From Halostella salina (GTDB lineage: Archaea > Halobacteriota > Halobacteria > Halobacteriales > Natronoarchaeaceae): DNA of 64,000 nt. Location of the stretch: positions 248,001 to 312,000 of the forward strand of contig NZ_RCIH01000001.1 in the NCBI RefSeq assembly GCF_003675855.1, written 5' to 3'. A program made the translations under genes and the position numbers. Positions within the stretch are counted from its first letter, which is position 1; the number at the start of each line of letters is the position of its first letter. Below are positions 17,822 through 25,234 of this stretch, piece after piece. A model generated the notes under the pieces. It searched no databases. It worked only from the letters and a program-made list of their open reading frames with translations, and was not told where the DNA came from.

Positions 17822-19246
17822 ATGAAAGAGTACAAAACCATCACGGAGATCAGCGGCCCGCTGGTGTTCGCCGAGGTCGACGAGCCGATCGGCTACGACG
17901 AGATCGTCGAGATCGAGACGCCGGACGGCGACACCAAGCGCGGGCAGGTACTGGAATCGAGCGACGGCATCGTCTCCATTCAGGTGTTCGAGGGGACCGA
18001 AGGGATCGACCGCGACTCGTCGGTCCGCTTCCTGGGCGAGACGATGAAGATGCCGGTCACGGAGGACCTGCTCGGGCGCGTCCTCGACGGCTCGGGCAAC
18101 CCGATCGACGGCGGGCCGGAGATCGTCCCCGACGAGCGCCGCGACATCGTCGGCGCGGCGATCAACCCCTACGCCCGCGAGTACCCCGAGGAGTTCATCC
18201 AGACCGGCGTGTCGGCCATCGACGGCATGAACACGCTGGTCCGCGGGCAGAAGCTCCCCATCTTCTCGGCGTCGGGCCTGCCGCACAACGACCTGGCGCT
18301 GCAGATCGCACGGCAGGCGACGGTGCCGGAGGAGGACGAGACCGACGAGGACGGCGACGGCTCCGAGTTCGCGGTGATCTTCGGCGCGATGGGGATCACC
18401 CAGGAGGAGGCCAACGAGTTCATGGACGACTTCGAGCGCACCGGCGCGCTGGAGCGCTCTGTCGTGTTCATGAACCTCGCGGACGACCCCGCAGTCGAGC
18501 GGACGGTCACGCCGCGGATGGCCCTGACCACCGCCGAGTACCTCGCGTTCGACAAGGGGTACCACGTGCTGGTCATCCTCACCGACATGACCAACTACTG
18601 TGAGGCGCTGCGCGAGATCGGTGCCGCCCGCGAGGAGGTCCCGGGGCGCCGGGGCTACCCCGGGTACATGTACACCGACCTCGCCCAGCTGTACGAGCGC
18701 GCCGGCCGCATCGAGGGCCGCGAGGGGTCGGTGACGCAGATCCCCATCCTGACGATGCCCGGCGACGACGACACGCACCCGATCCCCGACCTGACCGGCT
18801 ACATCACCGAGGGCCAGATCATGATGGACCGGGACCTCAACAGCCAGGGGATCGAGCCGCCGGTCGACGTGCTGCCGAGCCTCTCCCGGCTGATGGACGA
18901 CGGGATCGGCGAGGGGCTGACCCGCGCCGACCACGGCGACGTGTCCGACCAGATGTACGCCGCGTACGCGGAGGGCGAGGACCTGCGCGACCTGGTGAAC
19001 ATCGTCGGCCGCGAGGCGCTCTCCGAGCGCGACAACAAGTTCCTCGACTTCGCCGACCGCTTCGAGGAGGAGCTGGTCCAGCAGGGGTTCGACACGAACC
19101 GCGACATCGACGAGACGCTCGAACTCGGCTGGGACCTGCTGTCGATGCTCCCGAAGGCCGAGCTGAACCGCGTCGACGAGGAGCTCATCGAGGAGCACTA
19201 CCGCGAGGACGAGGACGCCGCCGCCGAGGAAGTCACGGCCGACTGA
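17822..19246 (+). CDS. atpB: A-type ATP synthase regulatory subunit B
   Basis: A 474-residue non-catalytic nucleotide-binding subunit. It has the [22 protein letters not shown] segment where the catalytic P-loop is degenerate, and the [22 protein letters not shown] signature. Starts 3 bp after atpA. In most haloarchaea atpD follows directly; here a terminator-like T tract and the bat-bop block follow, and atpD is 4.8 kb downstream. Confidence 0.97.
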
Positions 19247-19283
19247 CGGTTCCGGGCGACGCGCGGCACCGCGCCGGCTGACT

Positions 19284-19297
19284 GATTTTTCTGTTTG
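19284..19297 (+). terminator. T-rich terminator after atpB
   Basis: GATTTTTCTGTTT tract 40-50 bp after the atpB stop, in GC-rich surroundings. T-rich tracts commonly end haloarchaeal transcripts, so the main operon may stop here before bat. Confidence 0.45.
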
Positions 19298-19304
19298 CCG
19301 CGGG

Positions 19305-19333
19305 CACAGGCTTACGGGTCTTCGGGCCCTGTG
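19305..19333. promoter_or_regulatory. Inverted repeat around the bat promoter
   Basis: Perfect 6-bp inverted repeat CACAGG/CCTGTG with a 17-nt spacer containing CTTACGGG. It ends 7 bp before the bat ATG. The position fits an operator, or an RNA hairpin over the start. No regulator is identified. Confidence 0.35.
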
Positions 19334-19340
19334 ATTGTTC

Positions 19341-21359
19341 ATGACAGACAGCGGGGGCCGGCGAGTGCTGTACGTCGACTCCGACGCGGCCGCGCGGCGG
19401 CGCGTGGCGTCGGCGCTCGCCGCGGAGGGGCTGGACGTACGGACGGCGGCGACGGCGGCCGAGGCGCTGGGCGGCCTCCGCAGCAGGGGTGTCGACTGTG
19501 TGGTCACCGCTTACGACCTGTCGGACGACCACGGGGGAGCCCTCGTTCGCGGCGTCCGAACGATCGCGCCCGGTCTGGCCGTGACCCTGTTCGCCGACGC
19601 GGGCGTCGACCCGCCGGACGCGGCGGCGACCGGCGACCTGCCGGCGCTGGTACCGCGAAGCGAGGGGCCTGCCGGACTCGCCGAACGGGTCGCAGGCGAA
19701 CTGCGGTCGGGGGGCGGGTGGGCCCCAGGCGATCCCGGCCGTGCGGTGCCCGAGGCGCTCAAGGAGCGGGCGATGGACGAGGCCCCCGTCGGGATCACGA
19801 TATCCGACCCGTCGCTGCCCGACAACCCGCTGATCTACGTCAACCAGGCGTACGTCGAGATGACCGGCTACCGGGAGGACGAGGTACTGGGCCGGAACTG
19901 CCGGCTCCTCCAGGGAGAGGGGACGAACGAGGACCGCGTCGCGGAGATGGCGGCGGCGATAGCGCGGGACGAGCCGGTAACCGTCGAACTGCGCAACTAC
20001 CGGAAGGACGGAACGGAGTTCTGGAACCGCGTCGACATCGCCCCGATCGTCGAGGACGGCGCGGTCACCAACTACGTCGGCTTCCAGACGGATATCACGG
20101 AGCGAAAGCGGGCAGAGCGCCGTGCCGAGCGTAACGCCGTCGCCGCGCGGCGGGAGCAGGCCAACCTGGAGCACCTGGTCGACCGGGTCCAGGGGCTCAT
20201 GCGGGACGTGACCGCGACGACCGTGCGGGCGGAGAGCCGCGACGAGATGGAGCGGGAGGTGTGTGCCCGGATCGCGGCGACCGACAACTACGTCGCGGCC
20301 TGGGTCGGCGACCTCGTCCCGACCCTGGATCGGGTCGAGGCGCGCGCGAGCGCGGGCGAGTCGGCCGACCGGCTCGCCGACCTCTCGGTCGACGTCGAGG
20401 CGGCTTCGGGTCCGACCGCCGAGGCGGCGACGACCGACGCCGTCCGCGCCGTGGTGCGGGCCAGCGACCCGCTCCATGCCGGGGCGTCGGCCGTCGCACC
20501 GCCGTCGGCTGAGGCGCTGGCGGCGGTGCCGCTCGCGTACCGCGACTCCCGGTACGGCGTGCTCAACGTGTACGCGGCGGACGCCGAGGCGTTCGACGAC
20601 CGCGAGACGGTCGTGCTCGAATCGCTCGCCCGGGCGGTCGCGTCGGCGGTCGCACGGTTCGAGAGCCGCCGGGTGCTCACCAGCCACACCGTCACCGAGT
20701 TGACCGTCGGGTTCTCGGACGAGACGAACCCCTTCGTCGCCCTGGCCACCGACGCGGACGCACGCCTGGAGTACGAGGGGGGACTGCTCGACGACGAGGG
20801 CCGCTGGGTCACCTTCTTCGCCGTCGACGGGGCCGACCCCGAGCGCGTCTGCGCCGCCGCGTCGACCGACCCGGCCGTCGCGGCCGCGACCCCGCTCTCG
20901 ACGGCCGACGACGGCGGGGTCGTCGAGATAACCGTCGCCGACCCGACGCTCGTCGAACTGCTCGCCGACAGCGGCGCGCGGACGACCGGTGTCACCGTGA
21001 CCCCGGACGGCCACGCCCGGCTCCGGCTCGACGTGGCCGACAGGGACGCGGTTCGCACCGTCGTCGAGTCGGTCGCCGCGGTGTACGACGGGACGGAGCT
21101 GCTGGCGACCCACGAGCGCGACCGCCCCTCCCGCACCCCCCGGGAGTTCCGGTCGAACGTGATAGACCAGCTGACCGAACGCCAGCGCGTGGCGCTCCAG
21201 AAGGCGTATCTCGGCGGCTTCTTCGAGTGGCCACACGAGGTCTCCGGCGACGAACTCGCCGAGTCAATGGGGATCTCACGCTCCACGTTCCACCAGCATC
21301 TCCGTGCCGCGGAGCGCAAGATCGTCGCCGAACTGTTCGCCGACGCGGTCCCTGACTAG
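19341..21359 (+). CDS. bat: Bacterioopsin activator Bat (pseudo-receiver, LOV/PAS, GAF, HTH_10)
   Basis: A 672-residue regulator. Residues 7-120 form a response-regulator-like domain in which the phospho-acceptor position is Ala57 (TAYDLS where active receivers have an Asp). A PAS domain (about 145-255) has the LOV signature GRNCRLLQG with Cys187 plus NYRKDGTEFWN. A coiled linker and a GAF-like domain (about 275-435) follow, then a Bat-type domain and a C-terminal HTH_10 helix-turn-helix (about 610-665, LTERQRVALQKAYLGGFFEWP). By homology it activates bop and retinal/carotenoid genes in response to light and/or low oxygen. It sits directly before bop. Confidence 0.92.
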   Translation: MTDSGGRRVLYVDSDAAARRRVASALAAEGLDVRTAATAAEALGGLRSRGVDCVVTAYDLSDDHGGALVRGVRTIAPGLAVTLFADAGVDPPDAAATGDLPALVPRSEGPAGLAERVAGELRSGGGWAPGDPGRAVPEALKERAMDEAPVGITISDPSLPDNPLIYVNQAYVEMTGYREDEVLGRNCRLLQGEGTNEDRVAEMAAAIARDEPVTVELRNYRKDGTEFWNRVDIAPIVEDGAVTNYVGFQTDITERKRAERRAERNAVAARREQANLEHLVDRVQGLMRDVTATTVRAESRDEMEREVCARIAATDNYVAAWVGDLVPTLDRVEARASAGESADRLADLSVDVEAASGPTAEAATTDAVRAVVRASDPLHAGASAVAPPSAEALAAVPLAYRDSRYGVLNVYAADAEAFDDRETVVLESLARAVASAVARFESRRVLTSHTVTELTVGFSDETNPFVALATDADARLEYEGGLLDDEGRWVTFFAVDGADPERVCAAASTDPAVAAATPLSTADDGGVVEITVADPTLVELLADSGARTTGVTVTPDGHARLRLDVADRDAVRTVVESVAAVYDGTELLATHERDRPSRTPREFRSNVIDQLTERQRVALQKAYLGGFFEWPHEVSGDELAESMGISRSTFHQHLRAAERKIVAELFADAVPD

Positions 21360-21363
21360 TTTG
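21350..21363 (+). promoter_or_regulatory. bop upstream activating sequence (Bat site)
   Basis: CCCTGACTAGTTTG matches the Halobacterium bop UAS consensus (ACC-c-n-actag-TT-n-G) at 11 of 13 defined positions. It lies 41-54 bp before the bop ATG, the spacing expected for a transcript with a 2-nt leader. The site overlaps the bat stop codon (TAG at 21357-21359). Confidence 0.8.
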
Positions 21364-21372
21364 GTACGTCGT

Positions 21373-21380
21373 CTATTGTT
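21373..21380 (+). promoter_or_regulatory. bop TATA-like box
   Basis: CTATTGTT, a poor TATA match, centred about 27 bp before the bop ATG. A weak core promoter fits a gene that depends on an activator. Confidence 0.4.
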
Positions 21381-21403
21381 GATTATCACCAAAAACCGAT
21401 CGT

Positions 21404-22135
21404 ATGCCACAACCCGGCTCCGAATCGATATGGCTGTGGATAGGCACCGCAGGAATGACGCTCGGTATGCTGTACTTCATCGGGAGAGGCTGGGGAGTAC
21501 GCGACACCGAGCAGGAACAGTTCTACGTCATCACGATATTCATCACCGCGATCGCGGCGGCGTCGTACTTCTCAATGGCGACGGGCTTCGGGCTCACGGA
21601 GATCGAGGTCGCAGGGGACACCCTCGACATCTACTGGGCCCGGTACGCCGACTGGCTGTTCACCACGCCGCTCCTGTTGCTCGACCTCGCGTTGCTGGCA
21701 CGGGTCGACAGGAACACGATAGCCACCCTGATCGGGCTGGACGTGTTCATGATCGTCACCGGGCTGGTCGGCGCGCTGGTGACCGAGTCGGTCGCGTTCC
21801 GCCTCGCCTGGTGGGGGATCAGCACCGCCGCGCTGCTGTTCCTGCTGTACTTCCTGGTGCAGGGGCTCTCGGAGATGGCCGACGAGCGCCCCGCCGAGGT
21901 GAACAGCCTCGTCAGCACGCTCCAGGGAATACTGGTCGTGCTGTGGATCGCGTATCCGATCGTGTGGATCGTCGGCACCGAGGGGCTGGGGTACGTCCCG
22001 CTGTACGCCGAGACGGCGGCGTTCATGGTGCTTGACCTCTCGGCGAAGGTCGGCTTCGGCTTCGTCCTGCTGCGGAGCCGCTCGGTGCTCGACGCCGCGA
22101 CCGACGTGCAGCCAGCCTCGCCGACGGCCGACTGA
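21404..22135 (+). CDS. bop: Bacteriorhodopsin apoprotein (bacterio-opsin)
   Basis: A 243-residue seven-helix opsin. All proton-pump residues of Halobacterium bacteriorhodopsin are present: Arg80 (R82), Asp83 (D85, Schiff-base proton acceptor), Thr87 (T89), Asp94 (D96, proton donor), Asp113 (D115), release-group Glu193 and Glu203 (E194/E204), Asp211 (D212) and the retinal lysine Lys215 (K216). The D-T-D triad at 85/89/96 marks an outward proton pump rather than a halorhodopsin or sensory rhodopsin. It sits next to its activator and retinal genes and inside the atp cluster. Confidence 0.97.
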   Translation: MPQPGSESIWLWIGTAGMTLGMLYFIGRGWGVRDTEQEQFYVITIFITAIAAASYFSMATGFGLTEIEVAGDTLDIYWARYADWLFTTPLLLLDLALLARVDRNTIATLIGLDVFMIVTGLVGALVTESVAFRLAWWGISTAALLFLLYFLVQGLSEMADERPAEVNSLVSTLQGILVVLWIAYPIVWIVGTEGLGYVPLYAETAAFMVLDLSAKVGFGFVLLRSRSVLDAATDVQPASPTAD

Positions 22136-22150
22136 CCGCGGCCGTTCCCC

Positions 22151-22167
22151 GGCCGTCCCGGACGGCC
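22151..22167 (+). terminator. GC-rich hairpin after bop
   Basis: Perfect 8-bp inverted repeat GGCCGTCC/GGACGGCC with one central base, 15 bp after the bop stop. It would form a stable RNA hairpin that could end or protect the abundant bop mRNA and separate it from crtY. Confidence 0.5.
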
Positions 22168-22230
22168 CGCCCGTAGCAGCGCCGCCGGTCGCTCCCGGCG
22201 GGAAACTGACCTCTCACCCGTCGCTCACCC

Positions 22231-22965
22231 ATGCTCCACCCCCTGATCGTCGTCACGTACTTCGGGTTTCACCTGACGTTCGTCGTTCCGCCGGCGGTCG
22301 GCCTGACGGCCGCGTCGCTGTCCCGCCCGGCTCGCGAGGGCGCGGACGTGCCGGTCGGCGGTCTGGCCGCCATCGTCGTGCTGGCGCTTTTGTACACGAC
22401 GCCGTGGGACAACTACCTCATCGAGCAGGGGGTCTGGCACTACGGCGAGGGCGTCGTCGCCGGGACCATCTGGCACGCGCCGGTCGAGGAGTACCTGTTC
22501 ATCGCGCTCCAGCCGCTCGTGACGGCGCTGTGGCTGTCCCGGGTCCACGACGGCGGCGACCCCGGCCCGACAGCGACCGTCCGAAACCGGGTCGCCGGTC
22601 TGCTCGCCGGCGTCGCCGTCGGCGGCGTCGGCGCGGTCCTGCTGTCGAGCGACCCCACGTTCTACCTCGGCGCGATCCTGCTGTGGGCCGCGCCGGTGCT
22701 GGCCATCCAGTGGGCGTTCGGCTGGCCGTACCTCTGGCACCACCGACGGGTCGTCGCCGTCGGCGTCGCGGTGCCGACGCTGTACTTCTGGGTGGCCGAC
22801 CGGATCGCGCTGGCACAGGGGATCTGGGTGATCTCCGAGACGTACACGGTCGGGGTCGACATCCTCGGCCTGCCCGTCGAGGAGGCGCTCTTTTTCCTCG
22901 TGACGAACCTCTTCATCGTGCAGGGGCTGGTCCTGTACGAGTGGGTGATCGAGCGGTGGCGGTAG
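22231..22965 (+). CDS. crtY: Lycopene beta-cyclase (CrtYcd/CarR type)
   Basis: A 244-residue, seven-helix membrane protein of the fused CrtYc-CrtYd type. It has two related halves: PWDNYLI with HAPVEEYLFI in the first, and WVISETYTVG with LPVEEALFFLVTN in the second. The enzyme cyclises lycopene to beta-carotene, the precursor of retinal. It lies between bop and brp/blh and overlaps the latter by 10 bp, so the two retinal-synthesis steps are co-transcribed. No UAS was seen in the 95-bp gap after bop. Confidence 0.92.
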   Translation: MLHPLIVVTYFGFHLTFVVPPAVGLTAASLSRPAREGADVPVGGLAAIVVLALLYTTPWDNYLIEQGVWHYGEGVVAGTIWHAPVEEYLFIALQPLVTALWLSRVHDGGDPGPTATVRNRVAGLLAGVAVGGVGAVLLSSDPTFYLGAILLWAAPVLAIQWAFGWPYLWHHRRVVAVGVAVPTLYFWVADRIALAQGIWVISETYTVGVDILGLPVEEALFFLVTNLFIVQGLVLYEWVIERWR

Positions 22966-24017
22966 ACCGGCCGACCATCCCGACCCGGGCGGTCCGGCGG
23001 ACGCTCAGGACGGCGGTGTTGCGCCCATCGTGGGCGGTCCTCGGCGCGCTCGCAGTCGTTTTCGCCGCCGGCGCGACGCTGCCGCCGCGGCTCCGGTACG
23101 CGCCGCTCGCGCTGTCGGTCGTCCTCTTCGGCCTGCCACACGGCGCGGTCGACCACCTTGCCGTCCCGCGGGCTCGCGGCCGGTCGCCGTCGGCGCGGGC
23201 GGCGCTGGCCGTCGGTACGCTGTATCTCGTGCTCGGGGCGGCCTACGCCGCGCTGTGGGCCGTCGCGCCGGTGCCCGCGGCCGTCGGGTTCGTCGCCCTC
23301 ACCTGGCTCCACTGGGGACAGGGCGACCTCCACGCCGCCGTGGCGCTCGCGGGGGCCGACCACCTCCGGACGCGTGCACAGCGCGGGCTGTTCGTCGCCG
23401 TCCGTGGCGGCCTGCCGATGCTGGTCCCGCTGCTCGCGTTTCCGGGCGAGTACCGCCGCGTGCTGTCGGCGTTCGTCGCGCTGTTCGGCGACGGGTCGCT
23501 GGGGGCCTGGGCGCGGCTGTTCGCTCCGGAGGTTCGCCTCGCCCTCGGTGTCGGCTTCCTCGGGCTGACGGTCGCCAGCCTCGCACTCGGTCGGGCCCGT
23601 ACCGGCCCGGACGCCGGCGGGTGGCGGGTCGATGCCGGCGAGACGGCCCTGCTGTGGGCGTACTTCCTGACGGTGCCGCCGCTGTTCGCCATCGGCGCGT
23701 ACTTCCCGCTGTGGCACTCGCTCCGGCACGTCGCCCGCCTCATGCTGGTCGACGACGACGCCGCGGACCTGCTCGCCGACGGCCGGTGGCGTCCCGCACT
23801 CGCCCGGTTCGCGCGGGATGCCGCCCCGCTGACCGCGCTCTCCCTCGTCTTCCTCGCCGCGTTCGCGGTCGCCGTGCCGGGCGACCCCCGTTCGGAACTG
23901 GGCGTCGCGGCGCTGTATCTCGTCTTTATCGCCGTGTTGACCCTCCCCCACGTGGTCGTGGTCTCCGCGATGGACCGCGCCGAGGGCGTCTGGCGACCCG
24001 GGCACGCGGGGCGCTGA
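22956..24017 (+). CDS. brp: Beta-carotene 15,15'-dioxygenase, Brp/Blh family
   Basis: A 353-residue multi-helix membrane protein with the conserved histidines of the Brp/Blh family: GLPHGAVDH near residue 53, LHWGQGDLH near 112, PLWHSLRH near 255 and LPHVVVVSAMD near the C-terminus. It cleaves beta-carotene to two retinals for bacterio-opsin. The GTG at 22956 is preferred (overlapping the crtY end); another in-frame GTG at 22941 is possible. Whether it is the brp or blh orthologue cannot be told; only one copy is here. Confidence 0.9.
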   Translation: MAVDRPTIPTRAVRRTLRTAVLRPSWAVLGALAVVFAAGATLPPRLRYAPLALSVVLFGLPHGAVDHLAVPRARGRSPSARAALAVGTLYLVLGAAYAALWAVAPVPAAVGFVALTWLHWGQGDLHAAVALAGADHLRTRAQRGLFVAVRGGLPMLVPLLAFPGEYRRVLSAFVALFGDGSLGAWARLFAPEVRLALGVGFLGLTVASLALGRARTGPDAGGWRVDAGETALLWAYFLTVPPLFAIGAYFPLWHSLRHVARLMLVDDDAADLLADGRWRPALARFARDAAPLTALSLVFLAAFAVAVPGDPRSELGVAALYLVFIAVLTLPHVVVVSAMDRAEGVWRPGHAGR

Positions 24018-24030
24018 CGGCTAATCTGTA

Positions 24031-24040
24031 AACAGTTATC
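24031..24040 (+). promoter_or_regulatory. Candidate promoter for atpD
   Basis: AACAGTTATC box 28-37 bp before the atpD ATG in the 50-bp gap after brp. It would let the displaced atpD be expressed without the light-regulated genes before it. Confidence 0.45.
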
Positions 24041-24067
24041 CGTGCGGGCGCGCAAGGCCGAACCAAG

Positions 24068-24757
24068 ATGGCCAAGGACGTCAAACCCACTCGGAAGGAG
24101 CTGATGCAGATCGAGGACCGCATCGAACTCTCCGAGCGGGGCCACGACACGCTGGAGAAAAAGCGGGACGGCCTCATCATGGAGTTCATGGACATCCTCG
24201 ACCAGGCACAGGACGTTCGGGGGAACGTCGAGGAGAACTACGAGGACGCCCAGAAGAAGATGGACATGGCCCGCGCGATGGAGGGCGACGTGGCCGTCCG
24301 CGGGGCCGCCGCCGCGCTGAAGGAACATCCCGAGATCACGACGGAGTCCCACAACATCATGGGCGTCGTCGTCCCGCAGATCGAGTCGAGCAAGGTGAAA
24401 AAGAGCCTCGACGAGCGCGGCTACGGCGTCGTCGGCACCAGCGCCCGCATCGACGAGGCCGCCGAGGCCTACGAGGAACTGCTCGACTCCATCATCCTCG
24501 CCGCCGAGGTCGAGACGGCGATGAAGAAGATGCTGGACGAGATCGAGAAGACAAAGCGCCGCGTCAACGCCCTGGAGTTCACGCTCCTGCCCGAACTGTA
24601 CTCGAACCAGGAGTACATCGAGCAGAAGCTGGAGGAGCAGGAGCGCGAGGAGATCTTCCGCATGAAGAAGATCAAGGACAAGAAAGAGGAGGAGGAGGCC
24701 GAGGCCCGCAAGGCCGCCGAGGAGACGGAGCAAGAGACCGTCACGGCCGACGACTGA
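24068..24757 (+). CDS. atpD: A-type ATP synthase subunit D (displaced)
   Basis: A 229-residue central rotor shaft subunit. The family start [15 protein letters not shown] and the GRINALE-like [15 protein letters not shown] motif near residue 172 are present. Both ends form the long coiled coil inserted in the A3B3 head. The complex needs exactly one copy. Here it is separated from atpB by bat, bop, crtY and brp. A long acidic/basic tail ([15 protein letters not shown]) ends the protein. Confidence 0.93.
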
Positions 24758-24844: not shown

Positions 24845-25234
24845 ATGGACTGCCCGGACTGTGGCGCGCCGACCGTTCGCTTCGCCGTGCCGTCGGACCT
24901 GCGGGACCACGCGCCCGACGACGGCGACGCGGCGGCGATCTGTACCGACTGTCTCCGCGTCCATCCGGCGGCGGAGCCGGCCGACGATCCGGAGTTCGGC
25001 GCGGTGAGCGACGCGTTCCCGACGGCGGCGAGCGCGGCGGTGCCGGCGGCGCTGCTGCTCGGGGTGCTCCCGTCGCTGGCGCTCAACCGCGAGTCGATCA
25101 CCGTCCTCGTCGGGCGCGTCGAAGCCGCCGGCACCGACCCGCTCCTGCTCTGTGACCGCCTCGCCGCGGACCCGACGCTGTCGCCGTCGGTGGATCTGGA
25201 GCGCCGCCGCCACCAGCTAGAACAGTTGCTCTAG
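24845..25234 (+). CDS. Zinc-ribbon protein (DUF6276-like)
   Basis: A 129-residue protein with an N-terminal metal-binding fold of two CxxC pairs (CPDC at residues 3-6, CTDC near 39-42). An Ala/Leu-rich helical region of about 85 residues follows. It resembles the haloarchaeal DUF6276 family, whose function is unknown. It has a TATCTTTTT box upstream, and its stop codon overlaps that of the converging regulator gene (shared CTAG). Confidence 0.65.
   Translation: MDCPDCGAPTVRFAVPSDLRDHAPDDGDAAAICTDCLRVHPAAEPADDPEFGAVSDAFPTAASAAVPAALLLGVLPSLALNRESITVLVGRVEAAGTDPLLLCDRLAADPTLSPSVDLERRRHQLEQLL

Follow-up and report, generated by a model that had tools for sequence, protein, structure and literature searches.

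A bacteriorhodopsin gene module between atpB and atpD of Halostella salina: the probable occupant of a tolerated slot in the ATP synthase cluster

In Halostella salina, four genes of a bacteriorhodopsin system (bat, bop, crtY and brp) are found within the gene cluster of the A-type ATP synthase, namely between the genes for its subunits B and D. The gene order resembles textbook photophosphorylation, and an operon is the reading that first suggests itself. The question is therefore whether the pump genes and atpD form one transcriptional and functional unit, or whether something else brought and kept them together; the comparison with other haloarchaeal genomes that is described below suggests another cause than an operon.

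The window (i.e. the complete stretch of 64,000 nucleotides that was analysed) contains the four genes at positions 19247-24067, all on the + strand, and this interval is exactly the gap from the atpB stop (19246) to the atpD start (24068). Profile matches and exact borders bear out the layout given in the preliminary description (Table 1), and bop lies between an intact atpB and an intact atpD on one strand, as in the layouts that have been published. The other genes identified in the cluster were atpI, E, C, F and A (the match for K was weak), and the DUF6276 gene is the usual downstream neighbour, adjoining atpD in most of the sampled genomes. The overlap between crtY and brp is 10 nt; an open reading frame at 23030-24031 that was considered for brp was rejected because it lies in the wrong frame. 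Both the BAT and the HTH_10 domain, by which a protein of the Bat regulon is recognized, are present in Bat, and the score of its receiver domain was slightly below the Pfam cut-off. The PF01036 profile matched bop over its full length (residues 7-226), the closest solved structures were deltarhodopsin, cruxrhodopsin-3 and Haloarcula bacteriorhodopsin, and the positions equivalent to Asp85, Asp96 and Lys216 are kept in the alignment. The segments RYADWLFTTPLLLLD and DLSAKVGF align with solved proton pumps, the retinal lysine and the acceptor and donor carboxylates being present; the protein is a predicted light-driven outward proton pump.

Table 1. Features of the atpB-atpD interval and its borders (positions in the window)
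Feature	Position	Strand	Basis
atpB, A-type ATP synthase subunit B, left border of the slot	17822..19246	+	TIGR01041, 859 bits
T5 run 3' of atpB, terminator-like	19286..19290	+	seen in sequence
bat, bacterio-opsin activator	19341..21359	+	PF15915, 127 bits; PF04967, 75 bits
bat domains: divergent receiver, LOV-type PAS, GAF, BAT domain, HTH_10			profile matches
LOV adduct-type cysteine codon, residue 187, motif GRNCRLLQ	19899..19901	+	alignment
Bat-type upstream activator box, CCCTGACTAGTTTGGTA	21350..21366	+	1 mismatch to ACCNNACTAGTTNGGTA
bop, predicted bacteriorhodopsin-type proton pump	21404..22135	+	PF01036, 228 bits
crtY, CarR-type lycopene cyclase	22231..22965	+	TIGR03462, 141 bits
brp, beta-carotene 15,15'-dioxygenase (retinal formation)	22956..24017	+	PF15461, 271 bits
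conserved promoter-like box of atpD, CTGTAAACAGTTATCC	24026..24041 (-42 to -27)	+	position, conservation
atpD, A-type ATP synthase subunit D, right border of the slot	24068..24757	+	PF01813, 200 bits
DUF6276 gene	24845..25234	+	PF19792, 167 bits

We collected 140 atpD regions from an order-level genome sample (the family level gave only 9 genomes), a sample that is biased towards genomes with an AtpD most like the query. Both border genes were in view in 131 intervals (named loci included): 37 of these contained bop, 53 contained other cargo (with pieces of bat or brp in 4 cases) and 41 were empty (median gap, 145 nt). Among the 90 occupied intervals bop was thus the commonest single occupant. 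A bacteriorhodopsin-like gene was present in 76 of the 129 genomes checked and was located at most 10 kb from atpD in 36. The other cargo was diverse and included: an AMP-binding enzyme, a solute-binding ABC transporter, PKD-repeat giants, a wax-ester synthase, a lanthionine-synthetase-like protein, a Yip1-domain protein and an OrfB transposase. The latter, an OrfB/IS605-type transposase gene (L164:12652-13887), sits in the slot beside other cargo. The linkage between pump and ATP synthase genes recurs in several families and is not the peculiarity of a single strain; the view from which the preliminary description had started, that in haloarchaea atpD directly follows atpB and bop is found elsewhere, is wrong as a generality, as appears from our survey and from an earlier one (PMC7755889).

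Twelve genomes showed no atpB in the region retrieved 5' of atpD, a region that measured 14 kb for ten of the twelve. Within Halonotius and a genome of the same clade (L019, L027, L232 and L235) bop is positioned directly 5' of atpD and atpB is absent from the upstream stretch, so that bop would seem to remain next to atpD when the cluster is broken up. In a different genus of the family to which Halostella salina belongs (L153, G008) the set bat-bop-crtY-brp is found downstream of atpD and the DUF6276 gene, not upstream, and the bop concerned belongs to the other slot-type clade.

A conserved element lies in front of atpD. A box like CTGTAAAnAGTTATCC was recovered near -42 to -27 of atpD in every interval class, and the bases further upstream were barely conserved. 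A strict pattern was found in 99 of the 141 genomes and missed obvious variants; the relaxed pattern that was used instead matched in 133 of 141, as compared to 0.7% in shuffled sequences. Five of the 8 genomes that were missed carry near variants, which brings the box to 138 of 141 genomes, and the three that are without it (L220, L249 and L251) have atpB-atpD gaps of 6, 26 and 6 nt, respectively. Position and conservation suggest that the box is promoter-like, and an RNA-seq study on Haloquadratum walsbyi describes atpD as monocistronic and as the most expressed of the atp genes (PMC5496347). Since the box is kept whatever lies upstream, the interval looks like a tolerated slot: with its own promoter atpD would remain expressed when genes fill the interval. 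A run of five or more T residues within 100 nt after the atpB stop was observed in 50 of the 126 assessable genomes and in 2% of random 100-nt stretches, an excess that we use as supporting evidence only because the random stretches were mostly coding. The sequence suggests separate promoters for the inserted genes and for atpD, and not one light-controlled operon. We consider it probable that the interval tolerates insertions as a slot between genes with promoters of their own, and that its occupant in Halostella salina is the module of a slot-resident bop lineage.

A putative switch is also found in front of bop. The Bat-type box overlaps the bat stop codon, begins 54 nt 5' of the bop ATG and was recognized by means of the consensus ACCNNACTAGTTNGGTA of the Halobacterium literature. 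Boxes with at most 4 mismatches precede 34 of the 41 slot bops, mostly at -57, as compared to 0.8% in shuffles and 0 of 144 atpD upstream regions, although many slot bops are near copies within one genus and the first number therefore overstates independence. The same type of box occurs upstream of many other bops in the set. The slot bop thus appears to have its own switch, which argues against the notion of slot bops that lack a promoter of their own. In Haloarcula-like slot bops (e.g. L143, L145, L151, L156 and L181) the outer ACC...GGGTA is kept at about -57 and the ACTAGT core reads ATATTT; because of this divergence control by Bat is doubtful there, and the diverged core might go together with the constitutive expression that has been reported.

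The signal that acts on this switch may be light. The best solved relatives of the PAS domain of Bat are structures of the blue-light photoreceptor YtvA (E 3e-36), and the domain contains the GXNCR(F/L)LQ motif with the cysteine as well as the flavin-contacting residues Asn, Asn and Gln. This cysteine was present in all 16 slot-linked Bats of the tree set (GRNCRFLQ type), in one Bat that is encoded just downstream of atpD and in 6 Bats linked to related bops elsewhere. It is replaced by Pro in 11 Halorubrum-type Bats (near Halorubrum archaerhodopsin genes) and by His in three Bats, of Halobacterium, Halohasta and Haloplanus. The other flavin-pocket residues are kept in 37 of 37 Bats, and the residue at the cysteine position requires two changes on the Bat tree, for which this column was masked. 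Our literature search recovered no published report of such a Cys/Pro/His split by bop type.

The genes could nevertheless be read as one unit, in which Bat-driven transcription continues through bop, crtY and brp into atpD, light or low oxygen raises the amount of the rotor subunit, and the whole is a selected photophosphorylation unit, as the preliminary description had proposed. The common strand and the short gaps agree with such read-through, as do the gap of 50 nt from brp to atpD, which contains no T-run, and the prominence of bop among the slot occupants. A T5 run in front of atpD was absent from all 13 modules with crtY or brp as the last gene and present in 17 of the 21 bop-only slots, where its place between bop and atpD would insulate the latter; this contrast is weak, since the bop-only slots come mostly from one genus and the comparison is confounded by relatedness. 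Against the proposal stand the box that atpD itself has in all these genomes and the slots with unrelated cargo, which show the same architecture. We therefore hold read-through to be unlikely: the physical linkage is real and recurrent, yet a single operon is unsupported in view of the separate boxes of atpD and bop and the unrelated cargo in sister species. We are similarly doubtful about a blue-light-gated energy unit, in which the LOV-type Bat senses light, bop-crtY-brp is turned on and transcription crosses the 50-nt gap into atpD. If it were true, light would raise the proton pump and the rotor subunit of the ATP synthase together, and the cysteine-less Bats of Halobacterium and Halorubrum would be derived forms that have lost direct blue-light input.

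A different proposal is that bop landed between the B and D genes by chance and is driven by the ATP synthase promoter. Expression from that promoter has been proposed for HmBRI of Haloarcula, which is reported to be constitutive (PMC7755889, citing Fu et al. 2010 for the latter), and the acceptance of many unrelated genes by the slot is in line with random insertion. Repeated chance insertion would not, however, give the clustering that is seen on the bop tree (109 bops), where the slot label needs 3-4 changes versus 33 when shuffled; on the tree of atpB and atpD the slot bop needs 16 changes, the trees being unrooted so that gain and loss are indistinguishable. This pattern implies that the location travels with bop lineages and does not stem from random insertion, and the nearly fixed place of the Bat-type box in front of the 34 slot bops that carry it also speaks against this proposal, which we hold to be very unlikely. 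Judged by the two trees, the slot location is inherited with certain bop lineages, the presence of which flickers across hosts.

The sister species illustrate how the content of the slot differs between close relatives. In a genome of the same genus (L114) the atpB DNA is 95.7% identical and an ABC transporter replaces the module; the homology ends 2 nt past the atpB stop. It resumes about 60 nt before the atpD ATG, as does the homology to another genome of this genus, in which the site is empty (L116). Natrinema ejinorense has bop in the same slot, and this bop is 79-82% identical to that of the genus of Halostella salina, which tops the 396 cross-family pairs (mean 67%) and suggests a transfer into this very slot. 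Bop and the atp genes are congruent (r = 0.88), and part of this congruence fits vertical descent with many losses equally well as exchange between lineages. In L115 (G001), again of the genus of Halostella salina, the atpB-atpD interval is 749 nt long and some 4 kb are missing relative to the intact module in L117, with both ends left; no bop was found elsewhere in the L115 genome. A cassette for an ABC transporter with a solute-binding protein fills the slot both in L114 and in the Natrinema-type L236 (and L007), with a DNA identity of 85%. This shared cargo was considered as proof of transfer and was set aside as not decisive, because the identity equals that of the flanks.

An assembly or annotation artefact can practically be dismissed, as nothing in its favour was found, the order atpB-bat-bop-crtY-brp-atpD is identical in an independent assembly from the same genus (MAG QS_9_68_17, G004; 246-kb contig), which makes an assembly error very unlikely, similar layouts are present in named isolates (e.g. 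Salinigranum salinum, with bat-bop-crtY) and the contig around the window measures 312 kb or more. A second intact atpD, which the preliminary description had put forward as a possible objection, was searched for genome-wide: atpD, bop, crtY and brp each occur once in the genome (99% complete), and no further copy of any of the four was found.

With the interval taken as a tolerated slot, the various observations can be combined into the following scheme. The ATP synthase cluster of haloarchaea would have been broken long ago at the atpB-atpD interval, and the present occupant of the break would be a bacteriorhodopsin module that resides in the slot and belongs to a particular bop lineage. Bat would bind the box 5' of bop and switch bop on, with its LOV-type PAS domain, judging from the residues kept, providing an input from blue light or from flavin redox state; crtY and brp, which overlap and have the same direction, would yield beta-carotene and, from it, the retinal of the opsin; and a promoter of its own, at -42 to -27, would drive atpD. 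The link to the ATP synthase would then be mainly a matter of an inherited and exchangeable location, which lineages lose, replace or hand on to one another; recombination through the conserved atpB and atpD flanks would be a plausible route. An independently promoted atpD would thus leave a gap where genes settle, with the pump module as one of many, albeit persistent, occupants.

The arrangement is real, widespread and previously reported, and is found here in one more genus. The linkage of bop and ATPase genes was reported for Haloarcula in 2007 (PMC1885257), and a 2020 survey (PMC7755889) states that bop, in species that have it, is usually found between the genes for subunits B and D, at times accompanied by bat, crtY and blh, and that in other species the place is empty or taken by different genes. 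The position of bop is the same here, and accessory bat, crtY and blh genes, empty intervals and bop-free intervals are reported there as well; the genus of Halostella salina is not named in the available parts of the two accounts. The 2020 survey regards HmBRI as lacking its own promoter and its insertion as random, whereas the slot bop described here carries a Bat-type box. In the same parts there is no mention of the promoter box of atpD, the Bat-type box of the slot bops, the pattern on the bop tree, the breakpoints in the sister species or the LOV cysteine. With the bop-brp-bat regulon of Halobacterium salinarum the module shares the Bat activator, bop, brp and a Bat-type box before bop; that regulon differs in that it lies away from the atp genes, its bop belongs to another clade and its Bat is without the LOV cysteine (PMC4844311). 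The cysteine-less BAT-LOV* of halobacteria, the Pro type of which binds flavin (PMC4682037), is of the same protein family and has the same flavin pocket residues, and differs by having Pro where the slot-linked Bats keep the cysteine. The regulation of bacteriorhodopsin has been studied with a Bat that lacks this residue, and the species with a cysteine-bearing slot Bat now offer the opportunity to examine whether blue light directly controls a proton pump gene.
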